Shown here piece by piece: positions 6,226 through 13,725 of a DNA stretch of 34,490 bases. Under the pieces are notes generated by a model, which saw only the letters and a list, made by a program, of their open reading frames with translations, had not been told where the DNA came from and ran no database searches. The stretch covers positions 130,854 through 165,343 of the forward strand of contig NHDO01000041.1 of NCBI GenBank assembly GCA_002171735.1, in the 5' to 3' direction. Source of the stretch: Proteobacteria bacterium TMED61 (lineage in GTDB: Bacteria; Pseudomonadota; Gammaproteobacteria; Arenicellales; UBA868). The position numbers and the translations under genes were made by a program. The stretch's first letter is position 1. Every line of letters begins with the position of its first letter.

Positions 6226-7347
6226 ATGACCAAAAGTAAAGAATTTATTGCCCGGCTTCAGGACGGGCAGTTTACCCGGCGTCAGGCGATTAAAGCGCTT
6301 GGGGCCATGGGACTTGTTGTTGGCGCCGTGCCGCTAGGTGTGCGTTCTGCACTCGCTGGCGACAACGCCACGTACTTTACCTGGGGCGGCTACGATGATG
6401 ACGGCATGTTCGCGCCGTATATTGCCCAGCACGGCGGCCCCCCTAACTATGTCACCTACGGTGATGCTGAAGAAGGGCTCACCAAGATGAAAGCGGGCTT
6501 TGTGGTGGACGTTACTCATCCGTGTTCCAACGATATTCCGCGGTGGAAGGATTCAGGTATGTTCCAAGGGATGGATAAAGGCCGTCTCTCACACTACGGC
6601 GATCTTTTTGCGGACCTGGTTAACCTGCCCGGGGCTAATGACAACGCCGGCCAATGGTTTATGCCCTTTGACTGGGGTGCAACCTCGATCACTTATCGTA
6701 CGGATCTTGTTGATCTTCAGGGTAAGGCCGAATCCTGGGAGATGCTGTTCGATCCCCGTTATAAAGGCCGGATCGCCGTGATCGATAGCGCTGCGGATAC
6801 CTGGTACTGCATGGCTATTCTGGCGGGTGTCGATATCGGCAAGCCGCTGACCGGAGATGACATCGACAAAACCAATGCCCTGATGAAGAAACTCCGGCCG
6901 CAAGTGCGGATGTTCACCAACGATATGACATCGCTGCAACAGGCTATGGCCTCTGGCGAAATTGTTATGGCCATCACGTGGAATGAAACGCCGGTCGCGC
7001 TCGCAGGAGAAGGCCATGCTGTGCGCTTCGCAGGACCTAAAGAGGGCGCCCTGACCTGGTGTTGCGGGCTTATGATGCACAAGGATGCGCCGAATCTTGA
7101 CGGGGCTTATGATATTGTGAATGCCATGACGTCTCGCGAGACCGGGGTATACGTTATTGACTGGTGGGGTTACGGTCACTCCAACGCTGCAGCATTCAAG
7201 ATGGCGGACCCGGGTATCCTCGCCCAACTCGGTCTTGATAAAGACCCCATTGCCTATCTCAATGCTGGACATATGGGGGTTCCCCAGTCCGATGAGGTCG
7301 AAACCCGTATCAATCGCGACTTCGAGGCGATTAAGACCGGCTTCTGA
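6226..7347 (+). CDS. ABC transporter substrate-binding protein, spermidine/putrescine (PotD/PotF) type, Tat-like signal peptide
   Basis: N-terminus FTRRQAIKALGAMGLVVGAVPLGVRSALA; PotD/F-like body (WGGYDDDGMFAPYIAQHG..., WFMPFDWGATSITYRTDLV, ESWEMLFDPRYKGRIAVIDS). SD AAGGAGGAG upstream. Followed by PotB, PotC and PotA homologues. Confidence 0.9.
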   Translation: MTKSKEFIARLQDGQFTRRQAIKALGAMGLVVGAVPLGVRSALAGDNATYFTWGGYDDDGMFAPYIAQHGGPPNYVTYGDAEEGLTKMKAGFVVDVTHPCSNDIPRWKDSGMFQGMDKGRLSHYGDLFADLVNLPGANDNAGQWFMPFDWGATSITYRTDLVDLQGKAESWEMLFDPRYKGRIAVIDSAADTWYCMAILAGVDIGKPLTGDDIDKTNALMKKLRPQVRMFTNDMTSLQQAMASGEIVMAITWNETPVALAGEGHAVRFAGPKEGALTWCCGLMMHKDAPNLDGAYDIVNAMTSRETGVYVIDWWGYGHSNAAAFKMADPGILAQLGLDKDPIAYLNAGHMGVPQSDEVETRINRDFEAIKTGF

Positions 7348-7528: not shown

Positions 7529-8446
7529 ATGACAATGCCGATGAATAGCACAGAATCCAAAACAGTATCGCAGGTCCGTGACTACGTGAGCCGGCGGCCG
7601 GGATTGCGTGGCTATCTGCTGCTGTCCCCGACTTTAATGATTGTCGGCACGTTGATGCTCATACCAGTGCTTGGGATGGCGGTGATGAGTTTTTGGCAGC
7701 AGACAGGCCATATGGCCTTTGACATGAGCGGTACGCTCAACAATTACGTCGAAGCGCTTACCCGGGACATGTATCGGGTACTCTTTCTTCGGTCGCTGGC
7801 GATCTCAGGTCTGACGACCCTTGTCACAGTCGTGATGGCATTTCCACTAGCGTATTTCATTGCCTTTTATGTCAAGCGCCACAAGATGGTCTGGATCATT
7901 GTGGTTACTTTGCCATTCTGGACGAGTTATCTGCTGCGGGTATTTTCGTGGAAGGTAATCCTGGGCTACAACGGGGCGGTCAACTCAGGCCTGATCTCTC
8001 TTGGGATTATCGGTGAACCACTGACCTTTCTGATGTACAACCCCACGGCGGTGGTTATTACGCTGACACATGCTTGGGCAACCGTCGCCATTTTGCCAAT
8101 TTATGTGTCGCTTGAGAAAATCGATCGGTCTGTTCTCGAAGCGGCAACCGATCTTGGCGACAGCCCCTTTATACGGTTTGTTCGAGTCGTCCTGCCACTC
8201 GCATTACCGGGTATTCTGGCGGCGTCTGTCCTGATCTTTATTCCGACTGTGGGGGATTACGTCACGCCTTCGCTGGTGGGCGGGTCCGACGGCTATATGA
8301 TCGCCAACGTGATTCAATTCCAGTTTGGCCGTGGCAGTAACTGGCCGTCAGGTGCCGCGATTTCCTTAACCGCTATGACCCTTGTGGCTATCCTGGTCGG
8401 CGTCTTTGTATGGTCGGCACGACGACTCAGTGGGAGGCGTACATGA
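7529..8446 (+). CDS. ABC transporter permease (PotB/PotH type)
   Basis: Multi-TM protein with EAATDLGDSPFIRFVRVVLPLALPGI (EAA motif). Start may be ATG 7535 or 7541 given AGGGA at about 7525-7529. Confidence 0.92.
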   Translation: MTMPMNSTESKTVSQVRDYVSRRPGLRGYLLLSPTLMIVGTLMLIPVLGMAVMSFWQQTGHMAFDMSGTLNNYVEALTRDMYRVLFLRSLAISGLTTLVTVVMAFPLAYFIAFYVKRHKMVWIIVVTLPFWTSYLLRVFSWKVILGYNGAVNSGLISLGIIGEPLTFLMYNPTAVVITLTHAWATVAILPIYVSLEKIDRSVLEAATDLGDSPFIRFVRVVLPLALPGILAASVLIFIPTVGDYVTPSLVGGSDGYMIANVIQFQFGRGSNWPSGAAISLTAMTLVAILVGVFVWSARRLSGRRT

Positions 8447-9264
8447 ACCCCGGCACTCGTCTGGCGGCACGGATTCTCGGCACCTACGCCGTGATTTACG
8501 TGGCCTATCTTTATATCCCGGTACTCTTTTTGCCGCTTTTCTCATTCAATGATTCCATCTATATCAGTTTCCCACTACGTGGCTGGACGATGAAATGGTA
8601 CGAGACTATGCTCGCTAACGATGCGCTTCACCGGGCATTGATCAACAGTCTTAAAGTCGGCTTAGCGACAGCCTTTATCAGCACGGTACTGGGTATTCTG
8701 GGAGCTCGCGCGGTCACCCGGTACCGTTTACCCGGTCAAAAACCCGTGGTCGCCACGATCATGCTGCCTCTGGTGGTGCCCGAGATCATCTTGGCGATGG
8801 CGTTGCTCATGGTCATCTTGCGCGCCGGGGGTTCTTTGGGCCTGGTGAGTATCGCGGCCGGACATATTCTGCTCTGTGTACCATTCGCCATGGTCGTGCT
8901 GATGTCACGTTTTGAAGGCTTCGACCGGTCGTTGGAGGAGGCATCATATGATTTGGGCGAAAACGGCTGGTGGACATTCTGGCGTGTGACCTTCCCGAAC
9001 GTATTGCCGGGAATCGTAGCGAGCCTGTTGTTAACCTTCACCATCTCTTTTGATGAATTCATCATGGCATTTTTCTTGGGCAGTACCGAGCCTACTTTGC
9101 CCGTCTTCATGTGGAACCAGTTACGGTTTCCCAAACTCCTTCCCGGGGTTTTGGCGTTGGGTGCGTGTATTCTCATTGCAAGTGTATTTATCGTCCTGGT
9201 CGCCGAGTGGTTTCGGCGGCGCAACACCCTTAATTCACAGTCGGGAGATGTGATCATTGGATAA
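8443..9264 (+). CDS. ABC transporter permease (PotC/PotI type)
   Basis: EEASYDLGENGWWTFWRVTFPNVLPGI (EAA motif). Start set to the ATG in a 4-bp ATGA overlap with the upstream permease; the track start at 8410 is less likely. Confidence 0.92.
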   Translation: MNPGTRLAARILGTYAVIYVAYLYIPVLFLPLFSFNDSIYISFPLRGWTMKWYETMLANDALHRALINSLKVGLATAFISTVLGILGARAVTRYRLPGQKPVVATIMLPLVVPEIILAMALLMVILRAGGSLGLVSIAAGHILLCVPFAMVVLMSRFEGFDRSLEEASYDLGENGWWTFWRVTFPNVLPGIVASLLLTFTISFDEFIMAFFLGSTEPTLPVFMWNQLRFPKLLPGVLALGACILIASVFIVLVAEWFRRRNTLNSQSGDVIIG

Positions 9265-10330
9265 CGCATTTATCGAAATCATCGGAGTGTCGAAATCGTT
9301 CGGCAGTGTGACAGCTGTCGACGATATCTCGGTCTCTATACGTCAGGGTGAGTTTTTCTCGTTGCTGGGCCCGTCGGGCTGCGGCAAGACTACGTTGTTG
9401 AGAATTCTGGGCGGACTTGAGATGCCTGGAGGCGGCAAGGTCATGATTGACGGGCAGGATATCACGCACATGCCGGCGCATCTGCGGCCGACCAATATGG
9501 TGTTTCAGAACTACGCAATTTTTCCCCATCTCAACGTAGAGCAGAATGTAGCTTACGGTCTACGCCAGCAGAGGTTGTCCCGTGAGGAGCAGATGGAGAA
9601 GGTTTCATCAGCACTTTCGATGGTGAAGCTCGAAGGGTTTGAGAAGCGGGGTGCCGATGAAATGTCTGGGGGTCAGAAACAAAGGGTGGCCCTCGCAAGA
9701 GCCTTGATCAAACGGCCAAAAGTACTGCTTCTAGACGAGCCCTTGGGTGCCCTGGATAAAAAATTGCGCGAGGAGATGCAGATTGAATTGCGTATGCTGC
9801 AGCAGCAGGTTGGTATCACCTTTGTTTTTGTCACTCACGACCAGGAAGAGGCGTTGACGCTTTCCGACCGCGTAGCAGTGATGGACGAAGGGAAAATCCT
9901 GCAGATGGATTCGCCCCGGCAGATCTATGAGCGGCCGAGCAGTCGGAAAGTGGCCGACTTTATTGGCCAGATGAACCTGCTTGAGGGTGTGGTCCAATCG
10001 GTGGGGGAGAAGGTGACCGTAAAGACATCGGCCCTGGGTGAGGTCAGCGTTTCGGAAAATGACCAGGCCGTTAACGTTGGGGATTCCGTTACCCTTGCGG
10101 CCCGTCCTGAAAATCTGCGCTTGCGGGCAGATTCCGAACCCGGCGCTGTCAAGGTAACCCTAGCCGCCAGTGCGTTTTGGGGTCATACCACCTACTACCG
10201 GGTCACCGCGGTGGGTGCAGAGACGGATCCTCTGGATGTGGCCCAGCAGGATTATGGTGGACCTGGGCGGACCGGCGATGAGACCTGGCTATGCTTTAAC
10301 CCGGAGGACCTTTTGCTCCTGAAGTACTAG
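9257..10330 (+). CDS. ABC transporter ATP-binding protein (PotA type), TTG start
   Basis: LLGPSGCGKTTLLRILGG (Walker A), MSGGQKQRVALARALIKRPKVLLLDEPLGALD (signature and Walker B), C-terminal TOBE-like region. Confidence 0.95.
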   Translation: MDNAFIEIIGVSKSFGSVTAVDDISVSIRQGEFFSLLGPSGCGKTTLLRILGGLEMPGGGKVMIDGQDITHMPAHLRPTNMVFQNYAIFPHLNVEQNVAYGLRQQRLSREEQMEKVSSALSMVKLEGFEKRGADEMSGGQKQRVALARALIKRPKVLLLDEPLGALDKKLREEMQIELRMLQQQVGITFVFVTHDQEEALTLSDRVAVMDEGKILQMDSPRQIYERPSSRKVADFIGQMNLLEGVVQSVGEKVTVKTSALGEVSVSENDQAVNVGDSVTLAARPENLRLRADSEPGAVKVTLAASAFWGHTTYYRVTAVGAETDPLDVAQQDYGGPGRTGDETWLCFNPEDLLLLKY

Positions 10331-10340
10331 TATTGACGGT

Positions 10341-10392
10341 TTGAATTCCCTCCAACTGTACAGGTATACAGAAAATTGTATACTCATACAAT
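10341..10392 (+). promoter_or_regulatory. Candidate promoter/operator region: CTGTA-N6-TACAG (10356-10371) and ATTGTAT-ACTC-ATACAAT (10375-10392) inverted repeats; possible promoter TTGAAT-N18-TATACA
   Basis: Two adjacent inverted repeats sharing TGTA/TACA half-sites in the 95-bp gap directly upstream of the TetR-Rieske ORF. Confidence 0.55.
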
Positions 10393-10425: not shown

Positions 10426-12261
10426 ATGAACGCAGTCTCCTCCGCTGGATCCAATCGGCTAAATGTCGACCGGCGTGGCCAGTTGATTGAATCCACCATT
10501 GAGGTCATCTACCGTGACGGCCTTTCCCGGCTGACCCTCGCCAAGGTTGCTCACCAGGCTGGCCTATCAACCAGCATTGTCAATTTTTACTTCAAGACCA
10601 AAGAGCAACTGCTCCTGGAAACGCTTAAGACAGTTTCTCAGGAGTACGAGGCCGCGGTGGATAAAGCTTTCGCGAGTTCCTCTGACCCGGTAGAGACGCT
10701 AAAGACACTGGTAGAGGCCATGCTGGATCCCGAGCTTTGTACCCCGGCCCGTGCTGCGGTGTGGTATGCCTTTATGGGAGAGAGCCAGGCCCGGGCTGAC
10801 TACTCCAGGGCGGTGAGGGTCCGGGAACTCGCTATACGTCAGCGCATTGAAGGGTTGTTTACTGATTTGTTCAGTGAGGCCGAGGCATCCGCATCAAAAG
10901 GAAGTCATGCCATTCCGCTGGCACGCGCTTTGGATGCACTGATCGACAGTATCTGGGAGCAGTCGGTGATGGAGCCCGATATGCTCGATCTCGACCATGC
11001 ACGAAAGATCTGCCTCGATTACCTTGCGAGTGTGTTGCCGGAGGGTCTTGATACATCTATCGGTACACCATCCGGAAACCCGACGTCGATCTCGACCGAC
11101 ATCAGCGAGGGAATGCTGTCAGCCTGGACTTATACCAGCACCGAGTTGTATGACCTGGAGATGGCGGAGCTCTTCCGACGCGAATGGATGCTGGCAGGGC
11201 ATATCGCTGACGTGTCCGCCCCGGGAGACTATCTGACACTCGAACTGGGCCCGGAACGCGTTCTGGTCATGCGTGATGAGAGGCATCAGCTGCATGCCTT
11301 TCACAACGTCTGCCGTCACCGCGGTTCCCGTGTGGTGCCCAAGTCACAGGGCAACTGCGGACACGTGATGCGTTGCCCCTTTCATGGCTGGACCTATCGT
11401 CTTGATGGACGGCTAAAGAGTGTCCCCCGTCTACCCACATTCGAAGGCCTTGATATCCATCAGCAGGGTTTGATCCCCCTTGACGTCGAGGTTTGGCAGG
11501 GCCTGGTGTTCATTCGTTTCGAGGCGGGTGGAGAGCCGGTGGCGAAACAACTGGAGGTCATCGAAGAGCATGTCGGCAACTATCGCTTGGCTGACATGAT
11601 CTCGCTCGGTGAAGCCAGTGTCAGTGAGGTTTCCTACAACTGGAAGTTTTTTCATGATGTCGACAACGAGGGGTATCACGTACCCAGCGCACATCCGGCA
11701 CTTCAGGAACTGTATGGGCGGTCTTATCGCGACGATCTCATCGGGGGGATTTCTGTATCGACGGGAGTGGTTGACGATTACCCAGCGACTTCATGGAGCG
11801 TCGCGCGGTACAAGTCGCTATTGCCCGACGCCGAACATCTGCCCTCTGAGTCGCGCCGTCTGTGGCTGTACTTTGGAATTTTTCCCAACGCAGTGATTTA
11901 TTTTTATCCCGAAAAGGCCGGGTATTACATGACCTTGCCGCGCAGTCCCAATGTGACCCAGGTGGTATCCCGGGAATACGGCCTGCCGGATGCCTCCCGG
12001 CAGATGCGGGCGGCACAGTATCTCAGCGGCCGTATCGACACTCTGACCAGTCAGGAGGATAACGCGCTTGTGCAGTGGCTTCAGGAGGCGGCAGGGACAA
12101 GTGTTTTCCCGCTCGACAATCTTGCTGATATCGAAGCGGGTGTGCTGCAGTTTCACCGTCGCCTCAAACAGAAGATTCCCGTAATGCGCAGATGCCGCCC
12201 GCCGGTATTGGGAACGCTGGCCAAGGACAACCAGGAACTGCAGGCGGGAACGCTCGCCTGA
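10426..12261 (+). CDS. Fusion protein: BetI-like TetR-family regulator (about aa 1-205), Ser/Thr/Gly/Pro-rich linker (about aa 206-229), Rieske-type ring-hydroxylating/N-dealkylating oxygenase alpha subunit (about aa 230-611)
   Basis: N-term: RRGQLIESTIEVIYRDGLSRLTLAKVAHQAGLSTSIVNFYFKTKEQLLLETL (TetR HTH) and ALDALIDSIWEQSVMEPDMLDLDHARKICLDYLASVLPE (BetI-like C-term). C-term: C296-R-H298-x18-C317-P-F-H320 (Rieske) and NWKFFHDVDNE415GYH418VPSAH423P (mononuclear Fe site). Single uninterrupted frame. Confidence 0.92.
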   Translation: MNAVSSAGSNRLNVDRRGQLIESTIEVIYRDGLSRLTLAKVAHQAGLSTSIVNFYFKTKEQLLLETLKTVSQEYEAAVDKAFASSSDPVETLKTLVEAMLDPELCTPARAAVWYAFMGESQARADYSRAVRVRELAIRQRIEGLFTDLFSEAEASASKGSHAIPLARALDALIDSIWEQSVMEPDMLDLDHARKICLDYLASVLPEGLDTSIGTPSGNPTSISTDISEGMLSAWTYTSTELYDLEMAELFRREWMLAGHIADVSAPGDYLTLELGPERVLVMRDERHQLHAFHNVCRHRGSRVVPKSQGNCGHVMRCPFHGWTYRLDGRLKSVPRLPTFEGLDIHQQGLIPLDVEVWQGLVFIRFEAGGEPVAKQLEVIEEHVGNYRLADMISLGEASVSEVSYNWKFFHDVDNEGYHVPSAHPALQELYGRSYRDDLIGGISVSTGVVDDYPATSWSVARYKSLLPDAEHLPSESRRLWLYFGIFPNAVIYFYPEKAGYYMTLPRSPNVTQVVSREYGLPDASRQMRAAQYLSGRIDTLTSQEDNALVQWLQEAAGTSVFPLDNLADIEAGVLQFHRRLKQKIPVMRRCRPPVLGTLAKDNQELQAGTLA

Positions 12262-12327: not shown

Positions 12328-13725
12328 ATGACAACAAGCCCTAGCCCGATTGACCTTCCAGCGATCCGACGTATGGATGCGCACGTTGTTCACCCCTGGG
12401 AATCTTTTGATAAACCGAATGCGAGCCGTACGGTACTGGGCGTTGGTGATGGGGCCTATGTTTTTGATGCCAAAGGCAATCGTCTATTGGATGGTCCTGG
12501 CGGCATGTGGTGCGTCAACGCTGGCCATGGCCAGCAGACGATCGTTGACGCGATTCATCAGCAGGCCGCGCAGTTGTCGTACACCAGTCCATGGAGCCAT
12601 CCAACCGAATCCGCAGCCCGCCTGGCTGATCGTCTTGCTGCCGTTGCGCCCGGAGATCTTGACCACGTGTTTTACGCAACCGGTGGATCAACCGCGGTAG
12701 ATTCGGCGCTGCGCTTTATGATGTTCTATAACAATGTCTTGGACCGGCCGGAGAAGAAACACATTATCTCCCGTCATGACGCCTACCATGGCAGCACTTA
12801 TCTTGCCGCTGCCGTGTCAGGAAAGTCTCGGGACAAGAGTTGGCTCGATACAAGGCTCGATACAGTACATTTTATTTCATCTCCCAATCCCTACCGTCGG
12901 CCGGAGGGAATGAGTGTGGACGCCTTCAAACAGTTTTTAATCAAAGAACTGGAGGATAAGATCCAGGAGGTTGGCCCGGATAAGGTAGGCGCGTTCATTG
13001 CGGAGCCGATACTTGCCTCCGGGGGCGTCATTGTTCCGCCACCGGGATACCACGCAGCCTGTCTCGAAATCTGCCGCCGCCATGACATCATATATATATC
13101 GGATGAAGTGGTGACCGGATTCGGTCGCTTGGGCCACTGGTACGCATCCGAACCTGTTTTCGATATCACGCCGGACATCATTATTTCGGCCAAGGGTCTG
13201 ACTTCCGGGTATATCCCCTTATCCTGTGTAATCATTTCCGATAGGTTGATTCAGGCGGTCAGTGGCGACAGCGACCGCGGCTCCGTGTTTTCCAATGGCT
13301 TTACCTACTCGGGTCATCCGGTTGCTTGCGCGGCGGGAATTGCCAATATGGAAGTCTTTGAATCGCAGGAACTGCTTGAGAATGCACGGGAGGTGGGCCC
13401 CTATATGCAGACGCAGTTGCGGACCTTGTCGGATCTTCCGATCGTGGGTGATATCCGTGGCATGGGGTTGATGGGTTGTGTTGAGTGTGTTGTCAGCCAG
13501 GAGAGCCGAGAACCTCTGGAATTGGACTACGAGGTAGGCAGTCGAATTGATCAGCACTGCCAGGCGCTGGGTTTGTTGGTTCGACCGCTGATCAATATGT
13601 GCGTAATGTCTCCGCCGCTATGCATCACCCGCGAACAGGTCGACGAAATGGTCAGCATCCTTCGTGAAGGGATCGTACGTACCATGGAGGATTTGCACAA
13701 AGAGGGAGTGACAACCTTCGATTGA
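12328..13725 (+). CDS. Class-III PLP aminotransferase (omega-aminotransferase, SpuC/putrescine- or beta-alanine-pyruvate type)
   Basis: LLDGPGGMWCVNAGHG, VFYATGGSTAVDSALRF, GAFIAEPILASGGVIVPPPGYH, DIIYISDEVVTGFGRLG, ISAKGLTSGYIPLS (PLP Lys). SD AAAGGAG upstream. Confidence 0.93.
   Translation: MTTSPSPIDLPAIRRMDAHVVHPWESFDKPNASRTVLGVGDGAYVFDAKGNRLLDGPGGMWCVNAGHGQQTIVDAIHQQAAQLSYTSPWSHPTESAARLADRLAAVAPGDLDHVFYATGGSTAVDSALRFMMFYNNVLDRPEKKHIISRHDAYHGSTYLAAAVSGKSRDKSWLDTRLDTVHFISSPNPYRRPEGMSVDAFKQFLIKELEDKIQEVGPDKVGAFIAEPILASGGVIVPPPGYHAACLEICRRHDIIYISDEVVTGFGRLGHWYASEPVFDITPDIIISAKGLTSGYIPLSCVIISDRLIQAVSGDSDRGSVFSNGFTYSGHPVACAAGIANMEVFESQELLENAREVGPYMQTQLRTLSDLPIVGDIRGMGLMGCVECVVSQESREPLELDYEVGSRIDQHCQALGLLVRPLINMCVMSPPLCITREQVDEMVSILREGIVRTMEDLHKEGVTTFD

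Follow-up and report, generated by a model that had tools for sequence, protein, structure and literature searches.

Enzymes that carry their own DNA-binding repressor are rare, and PutA is the textbook case. In this trifunctional catabolic enzyme (proline utilisation A) a DNA-binding domain at the N-terminus serves to repress the enzyme's regulon autogenously (PMC5293562). BetI is a choline-responsive repressor of the TetR family. The boxes at the promoter of its operon are palindromic: BetI1 has ATTGACG*CGTCAAT, and BetI2 has a pair of palindromes that overlap and include TTGAAC (PMC12442346). The Rieske oxygenase CntA is an alpha3 trimer with inter-subunit electron transfer, and its substrate-recognition position Y203 is occupied by Tyr/Phe in group Va and by Asn in group Vb (PMC7948474).

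In the window (the whole stretch of 34,490 nucleotides that was analysed) a BetI-like TetR regulator and a Rieske oxygenase share one reading frame. We know of no TetR-Rieske pairing, and no description of such a fusion was found in the literature (open-access papers only). With a probability of about 0.8 we read the protein as a bifunctional autogenous repressor-enzyme for an amine imported by a Pot-type transporter.

The fused reading frame and its domains

The single 611-codon frame at 10426-12261 (+) runs from ATG to stop without interruption and comprises the following features.

10426..12261, + strand: TetR-Rieske oxygenase fusion, 611 aa (ORF, Pfam, alignment, model)
10483..10620, + strand: TetR_N helix-turn-helix, HTH, aa 20-65 (Pfam)
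10687..11037, + strand: BetI-type TetR C-terminal ligand/dimer domain, TetR_C_6, aa 88-204 (Pfam)
11041..11109, + strand: linker, aa 206-228 (alignment and model)
11182..11436, + strand: Rieske [2Fe-2S] domain, aa 253-337, ligands C296, H298, C317 and H320 (Pfam and alignment)
11611..12174, + strand: mononuclear-iron catalytic domain, Ring_hydroxyl_A, aa 396-583, with E415, H418, H423, D545 and D413

All four domains, in the order TetR_N, TetR_C_6, Rieske and Ring_hydroxyl_A, exceeded their Pfam gathering scores, the TetR half reaching 33.4 bits for PF00440 (cut-off 24) and 58.7 bits for PF13977 (cut-off 27). The preliminary description had placed a TetR regulator and a Rieske oxygenase in one chain, and this was borne out by the uninterrupted frame, the four Pfam domains and the existence of full-length orthologues. 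With a CxH..CxxH cluster and a His-His-Asp iron site the C-terminal half has the hallmarks of a Rieske alpha subunit. C296/H298/C317/H320, E415/H418/H423 and D545 showed no variation across 26 full-length fusions, and therefore the metal ligands proposed before hold, including D545, which had been named as a candidate third iron ligand. Only the role of E415 had to be revised: the bridging glutamate (position of CntA E205) is the better assignment for this residue, the iron triad then being H418/H423/D545.

The AlphaFold2 model of the fusion (31 sequences) gave two confident domains with a mean pLDDT of 87 and a pTM of 0.63, and residues 210-223 between the halves were disordered (pLDDT < 50). 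Structure comparison yielded CntA and stachydrine demethylase, both of them quaternary-ammonium Rieske oxygenases, as the nearest solved folds.

The window DNA originates from a metagenome-assembled genome (MAG) of 2.6 Mb in 96 contigs, and in one relative a scaffold gap interrupts the gene, which would fit a chimera, an artefactual frameshift or the production of two polypeptides from a single frame. Such an origin is nevertheless extremely improbable: an assembly chimera or frameshift is ruled out by about 40 full-length, stop-free orthologues from independent assemblies, the single-contig genomes G055 and G060 among them, and neither a stop nor a conserved internal start was present. Since the homologues are full-length and without a stop, the fusion is real, and the separate genes, indel or chimera that had been named as possible objections fall away. 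In the sole apparently split relative (L110:9162-9700, also L021) the split is mimicked by a scaffold gap, a run of Ns flanked on either side by a copy of one 23-bp sequence. A candidate internal translation start in the linker, a GAGGGA touching ATG230 in the window, was rejected as it is missing from close relatives, and no conserved Met or Shine-Dalgarno sequence was found across the relatives' linkers compared.

Distribution and sequence constraint

When 110 genomes of the window's order were searched by alignment, 55 gave matches; about 40 of these extend well into both halves, the remainder being Rieske-only. Full-length orthologues share 37-95% identity, reaching 95% within the window's genus, and are also present beyond it, in further genera and families of the order. 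Outside the order and within the class, fusions were found in 3 of 369 sampled genomes (G322, G449 and G229, from three families), and 399 genomes sampled from the phylum contained none except the window's own. The carriers are mostly uncultured, seemingly marine bacteria. Genome G016 harbours two fusion copies (C22:31945-33735 and C43:930-2720), each with its own double operator.

Among 26 fusions the mean identity was 51% for the Rieske half, 37% for the TetR half and 10% for the linker, the HTH (aa 20-66) being the best-conserved part of the TetR half with 57%. The alignment of homologues across the linker, which had been suggested as a check, was stop-free and gave linker lengths of 13 to 32 residues. 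Furthermore, pairwise distances in one half correlate with those in the other (r = 0.62, Mantel p = 0.0005), and dN/dS within the window's genus was ~0.08-0.13 in both halves versus ~0.5 in the linker (pairs with L092 and L020; synonymous sites were saturated in the L012 pair, and the very close L009 pair was uninformative for the linker). Purifying selection on both halves of an old and conserved fusion is thus supported.

The TetR halves of all fusions formed one clade (SH-aLRT 82, moderate), and the Rieske-only members nested inside the fused clade in the Rieske tree. The simplest reading of both trees is one fusion event followed by about eight losses of the TetR half, which would therefore be dispensable for the enzyme; since three of the fusions (L108, L142 and L143) branch separately in the Rieske tree, two fusion events are possible. 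Almost all nested Rieske-only genomes were without a close TetR homologue anywhere (G035 has several, G047 one weak), and no split back into two adjacent genes was found inside the fused clade. Separate genes occur in G467 of the same class, where the TetR gene is on the strand of the transporter, and the opposite strand holds the aminotransferase gene, the Rieske gene and two OYE-type genes. Shinella zoogloeoides plasmid p1 and Rhizobium sp. SL42 carry the equivalent parts as separate genes and Fuscovulum ytuae a related set of them.

Decaying fusion copies were observed in two further genomes (L030:2848-3189 and L171:1186-1698); one of them ends after about residue 109, the other having an internal deletion that joins residues ~275 and ~550 in frame. 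In L109, L081 and L082 both the HTH and the C-domain residues are eroded, the operator is missing and the TetR branches are long; the erosion in L109 and that in the L081/L082 pair are apparently independent events. Two loci outside the order (L142:9113-12288 and L143:8635-12060) contain a second, unfused Rieske gene directly after the fusion, and clusters with two Rieske genes were also seen in F. ytuae (L163) and Parasedimentitalea marina (L162); a two-alpha-subunit arrangement is therefore possible.

The predicted double operator and predicted autorepression

Upstream of the fusion the following elements were identified.

10356..10391, + strand: predicted double operator, CTGTACAGGTATACAG at 10356-10371, a 4-bp spacer and TTGTATACTCATACAA at 10376-10391 (conserved motif)
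10357..10392, + strand: two promoter-like sigma-70 matches, 10357-10384 and 10365-10392 (consensus match only)

The predicted operator of the window consists of two 16-bp 6-4-6 palindromes with centres 20 bp apart. As expected for a TetR-type operator, the palindromes overlap the promoter-like matches, of which 2 were found versus 0.2 expected. Two such 16-bp 6-4-6 palindromes, with centres 20-21 bp apart, precede 33 of the 37 fusion genes, the boxes being TTGAAY-N4-RTTCAA in most clades and YTGTAY-N4-RTACAR in the window's genus. They mostly begin 50-90 bp before the predicted protein start, and the maximum of 246 bp in L019 is probably due to the start assignment. When the clade under test was left out of the matrix, the fusion upstream regions scored 15-49, a procedure that limits but does not remove the bias arising from the double motif having first been spotted by eye in these sequences. 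For comparison, 355 upstream regions of other genes of the same loci were scored; the only ones above 3.8 belong to divergent genes that use the same intergenic site as the fusion, namely nine amine oxidase genes and, in L143, one gene of another kind. A generic inverted-repeat scan of the window alone was not significant (p 0.15); the operator signal rests on the two-box architecture common to several clades. In 31 whole genomes, searched with the form of the motif from the window's genus (<=1 mismatch), the double site was present once per fusion copy and nowhere else, two sites accompanying the two copies of G016 and 10356-10391 being the only one in the 2.6-Mb genome of the window.

The upstream scores of the three eroded-HTH fusions (L081, L082 and L109) equalled background, as did those of 11 of the 12 nested TetR-less Rieske genes, and the absence of the operator where the TetR half is eroded or missing counts for autorepression. 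A weaker double-operator remnant (score 13.7) lies before the TetR-less Rieske gene of L088 (upstream of 10661, - strand). The same three eroded fusions are what a TetR half that is vestigial or purely structural, without DNA binding, would look like; as the HTH is elsewhere the best-conserved TetR part and the operator is conserved and genome-unique, we consider this very unlikely for the family.

In the reading as an autogenous repressor-enzyme, the N-terminal BetI-like TetR half would bind as dimers to the tandem double operator overlapping its own promoter and thereby repress the fusion together with its operon mate, which would be the aminotransferase in the window and the divergent amine oxidase in relatives. 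The Pot-type ABC transporter encoded next to it would bring the amine substrate into the cell, and the substrate or a pathway intermediate would enter the TetR pocket and lift repression, leading to more enzyme. The C-terminal group V-like Rieske half with its bridging Glu would then oxidise the amine, probably as the first step of its degradation. A DNA-binding domain and a complete enzyme are indeed present in one chain, with a predicted operator at their own gene. Autorepression by the fusion is well supported by these sequence data, and from the TetR family and the promoter overlap we infer that the sign of control is repression. That the enzyme is tethered to its own repressor, as had been proposed at the outset, is very likely, since the promoter of the fusion itself carries a double operator for the TetR half that is both conserved and genome-unique; the conserved fusion and the selection on both halves speak for this part of the proposal as well, whereas the part concerning the ligand did not stand (see below).

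Before the transporter operon of the window no operator was found, and the predicted control is therefore narrower than in unfused clusters; this and the repeated loss of the TetR half weigh against the autorepression reading. Rhizobiaceae-type unfused loci carry a single TTGAAT-N4-ATTCAA box before the Rieske gene and another one between aminotransferase and transporter. Stand-alone BetI-like regulators with a perfect TTGAATN4(A/G)TTCAA box ~90 bp ahead of the regulator's start were seen in L027, L028, L029 and L031 (alphaproteobacterial/pseudomonadotal MAGs). In the recognition helix, Ser50 accompanies the YTGTAY half-sites of the window's genus and Gly50 the TTGAAY half-sites in most others; this covariation is suggestive and was not counted as evidence because it rests on one clade.

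Active site and HTH may moreover signal directly to each other. In a true trigger enzyme, substrate binding or the redox state of the oxygenase half would control DNA binding, and trimerisation would set the cooperative binding of two TetR dimers. The double operator accompanies the fused form, unfused clusters having mostly single boxes; CntA-type oxygenases are alpha3 trimers, which would cluster the TetR halves, and PutA provides a precedent for an enzyme-repressor switch. The long, variable and disordered linker argues in the opposite direction and, with the pTM of 0.63, gives no sign of a fixed interface in the AlphaFold2 model, which counts against autorepression too. Some separate TetR proteins, such as QacR, use double operators as well, and the TetR half retains its own conserved C-domain residues, common to unfused regulators, and could therefore sense alone. 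On balance a trigger enzyme appears doubtful. It is equally tentative that a trimeric Rieske oxygenase presents the TetR halves to the double operator, so that oxygenase occupancy, and not only the TetR pocket, would set transcription. If the oxygenase half trimerises, TetR dimers might form within or between trimers; hypothetically, a pair of trimers would hold three TetR dimers, so that both boxes could be occupied by two of them.

We see even odds that the halves are independent, i.e. that the fusion only ensures co-expression or co-localisation, the TetR half regulating and the oxygenase catalysing without communication. The flexible linker, the repeated loss of the TetR half while the enzyme was kept and the unfused cluster with separate genes agree with this; the one chain was, however, kept in most members over deep divergence and without split-back in the fused clade, which suggests that being linked is of some advantage. 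Fused, unfused and TetR-less forms exist side by side, with the operator kept or lost along with the repressor half, and the value of fusing sensor and enzyme is therefore directly testable. If one fusion and repeated loss are true, the family would be a natural experiment in the fusion and loss of a repressor.

Neighbouring genes, possible substrate and known systems

The fusion is flanked by the following genes.

6226..7347, + strand: PotD-like substrate-binding protein (SBP), polyamine-type ABC transporter (conserved neighbour)
7529..8446, + strand: PotB/PotH-like ABC permease
8440..9264, + strand: PotC/PotI-like ABC permease (ORF listed from 8410)
9257..10330, + strand: PotA-like ABC ATPase with TTG start (potA subfamily cut-off reached)
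12328..13725, + strand: class-III aminotransferase, directly downstream of the fusion (conserved neighbour)

The gene order in the window is thus SBP, permease, permease, ATPase, operator, fusion and aminotransferase, the last being probably co-transcribed with the fusion. Across relatives the genes beside the fusion encode a Pot-type ABC transporter together with a class-III aminotransferase or, alternatively, an amine-oxidase-like flavoprotein, and in some of them also an OYE-type flavoprotein. Within one genus the transporter of L095 differs in type and order from that of L093/L094 (SBP-ATPase-permease-permease instead of SBP-permease-permease-ATPase), apparently after replacement in place.

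The Pot-type transporter, class-III aminotransferase and flavin amine oxidase neighbours point to an amine as substrate. The oxygenase half has the bridging glutamate of group V (E415, invariant), and the CntA Y203 position is taken by D413 rather than by the Tyr/Phe of group Va or the Asn of group Vb. The main fused clade shares this Asp with the unfused homologues of Rhizobiaceae type, and among the fusions Tyr is confined to L108, L142 and L143. Asp413 together with the Pot-type transporter suggests a cationic amine, and oxidative N-dealkylation by the oxygenase half would be a plausible reaction. The protein scored 139.3 bits against the GbcA model NF058607 (cut-off 670), and the BetI equivalog models TIGR03384 and NF001978 gave 114.3 versus 201.3 and 107.3 versus 118 bits. 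A choline-type ligand, as suggested in the preliminary description, is consequently not supported, the TetR half lying below both BetI cut-offs and Asp replacing the Tyr/Phe/Asn of group V; likewise, no support was found for homarine, stachydrine, carnitine or choline as substrate. The Rieske subgroup with Asp at the substrate-recognition position, previously unnamed and tied to a Pot-type transporter, offers a starting point for finding an undescribed pathway of amine catabolism in uncultured, seemingly marine bacteria.

Regarding known systems, the oxygenase half has its best sequence and fold matches in the group V enzymes CntA (carnitine), Stc2 (stachydrine) and GbcA (glycine betaine), with which it shares the glutamate equivalent to CntA E205 and the His-His-Asp triad, but from which it differs by D413. 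The TetR half matches the TetR_C_6 and BetI models and its boxes are related in sequence to those of BetI; in contrast to BetI, the fusion has another box architecture, sits outside a bet operon and carries an enzyme. The unfused alphaproteobacterial cluster (S. zoogloeoides p1, Rhizobium sp. SL42 and F. ytuae) contains the same Rieske clade motif (DVDNEGYH in Rhizobiaceae-type members), the same Pot-type transporter and aminotransferase, and a TetR regulator. It differs in that TetR and Rieske are separate genes, in its extra GcvT-like and FAD enzymes and in the single TTGAAT-N4-ATTCAA boxes at several promoters (seen in related unfused loci). The fusion resembles PutA in being an enzyme with an N-terminal DNA-binding domain, switching being established for PutA and hypothetical for the fusion. 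PutA combines a ribbon-helix-helix domain with flavin and aldehyde dehydrogenase enzymes, whereas the fusion joins a complete TetR protein, including its ligand domain, to a Rieske oxygenase; the logic is already known from PutA, and it is the parts that differ.
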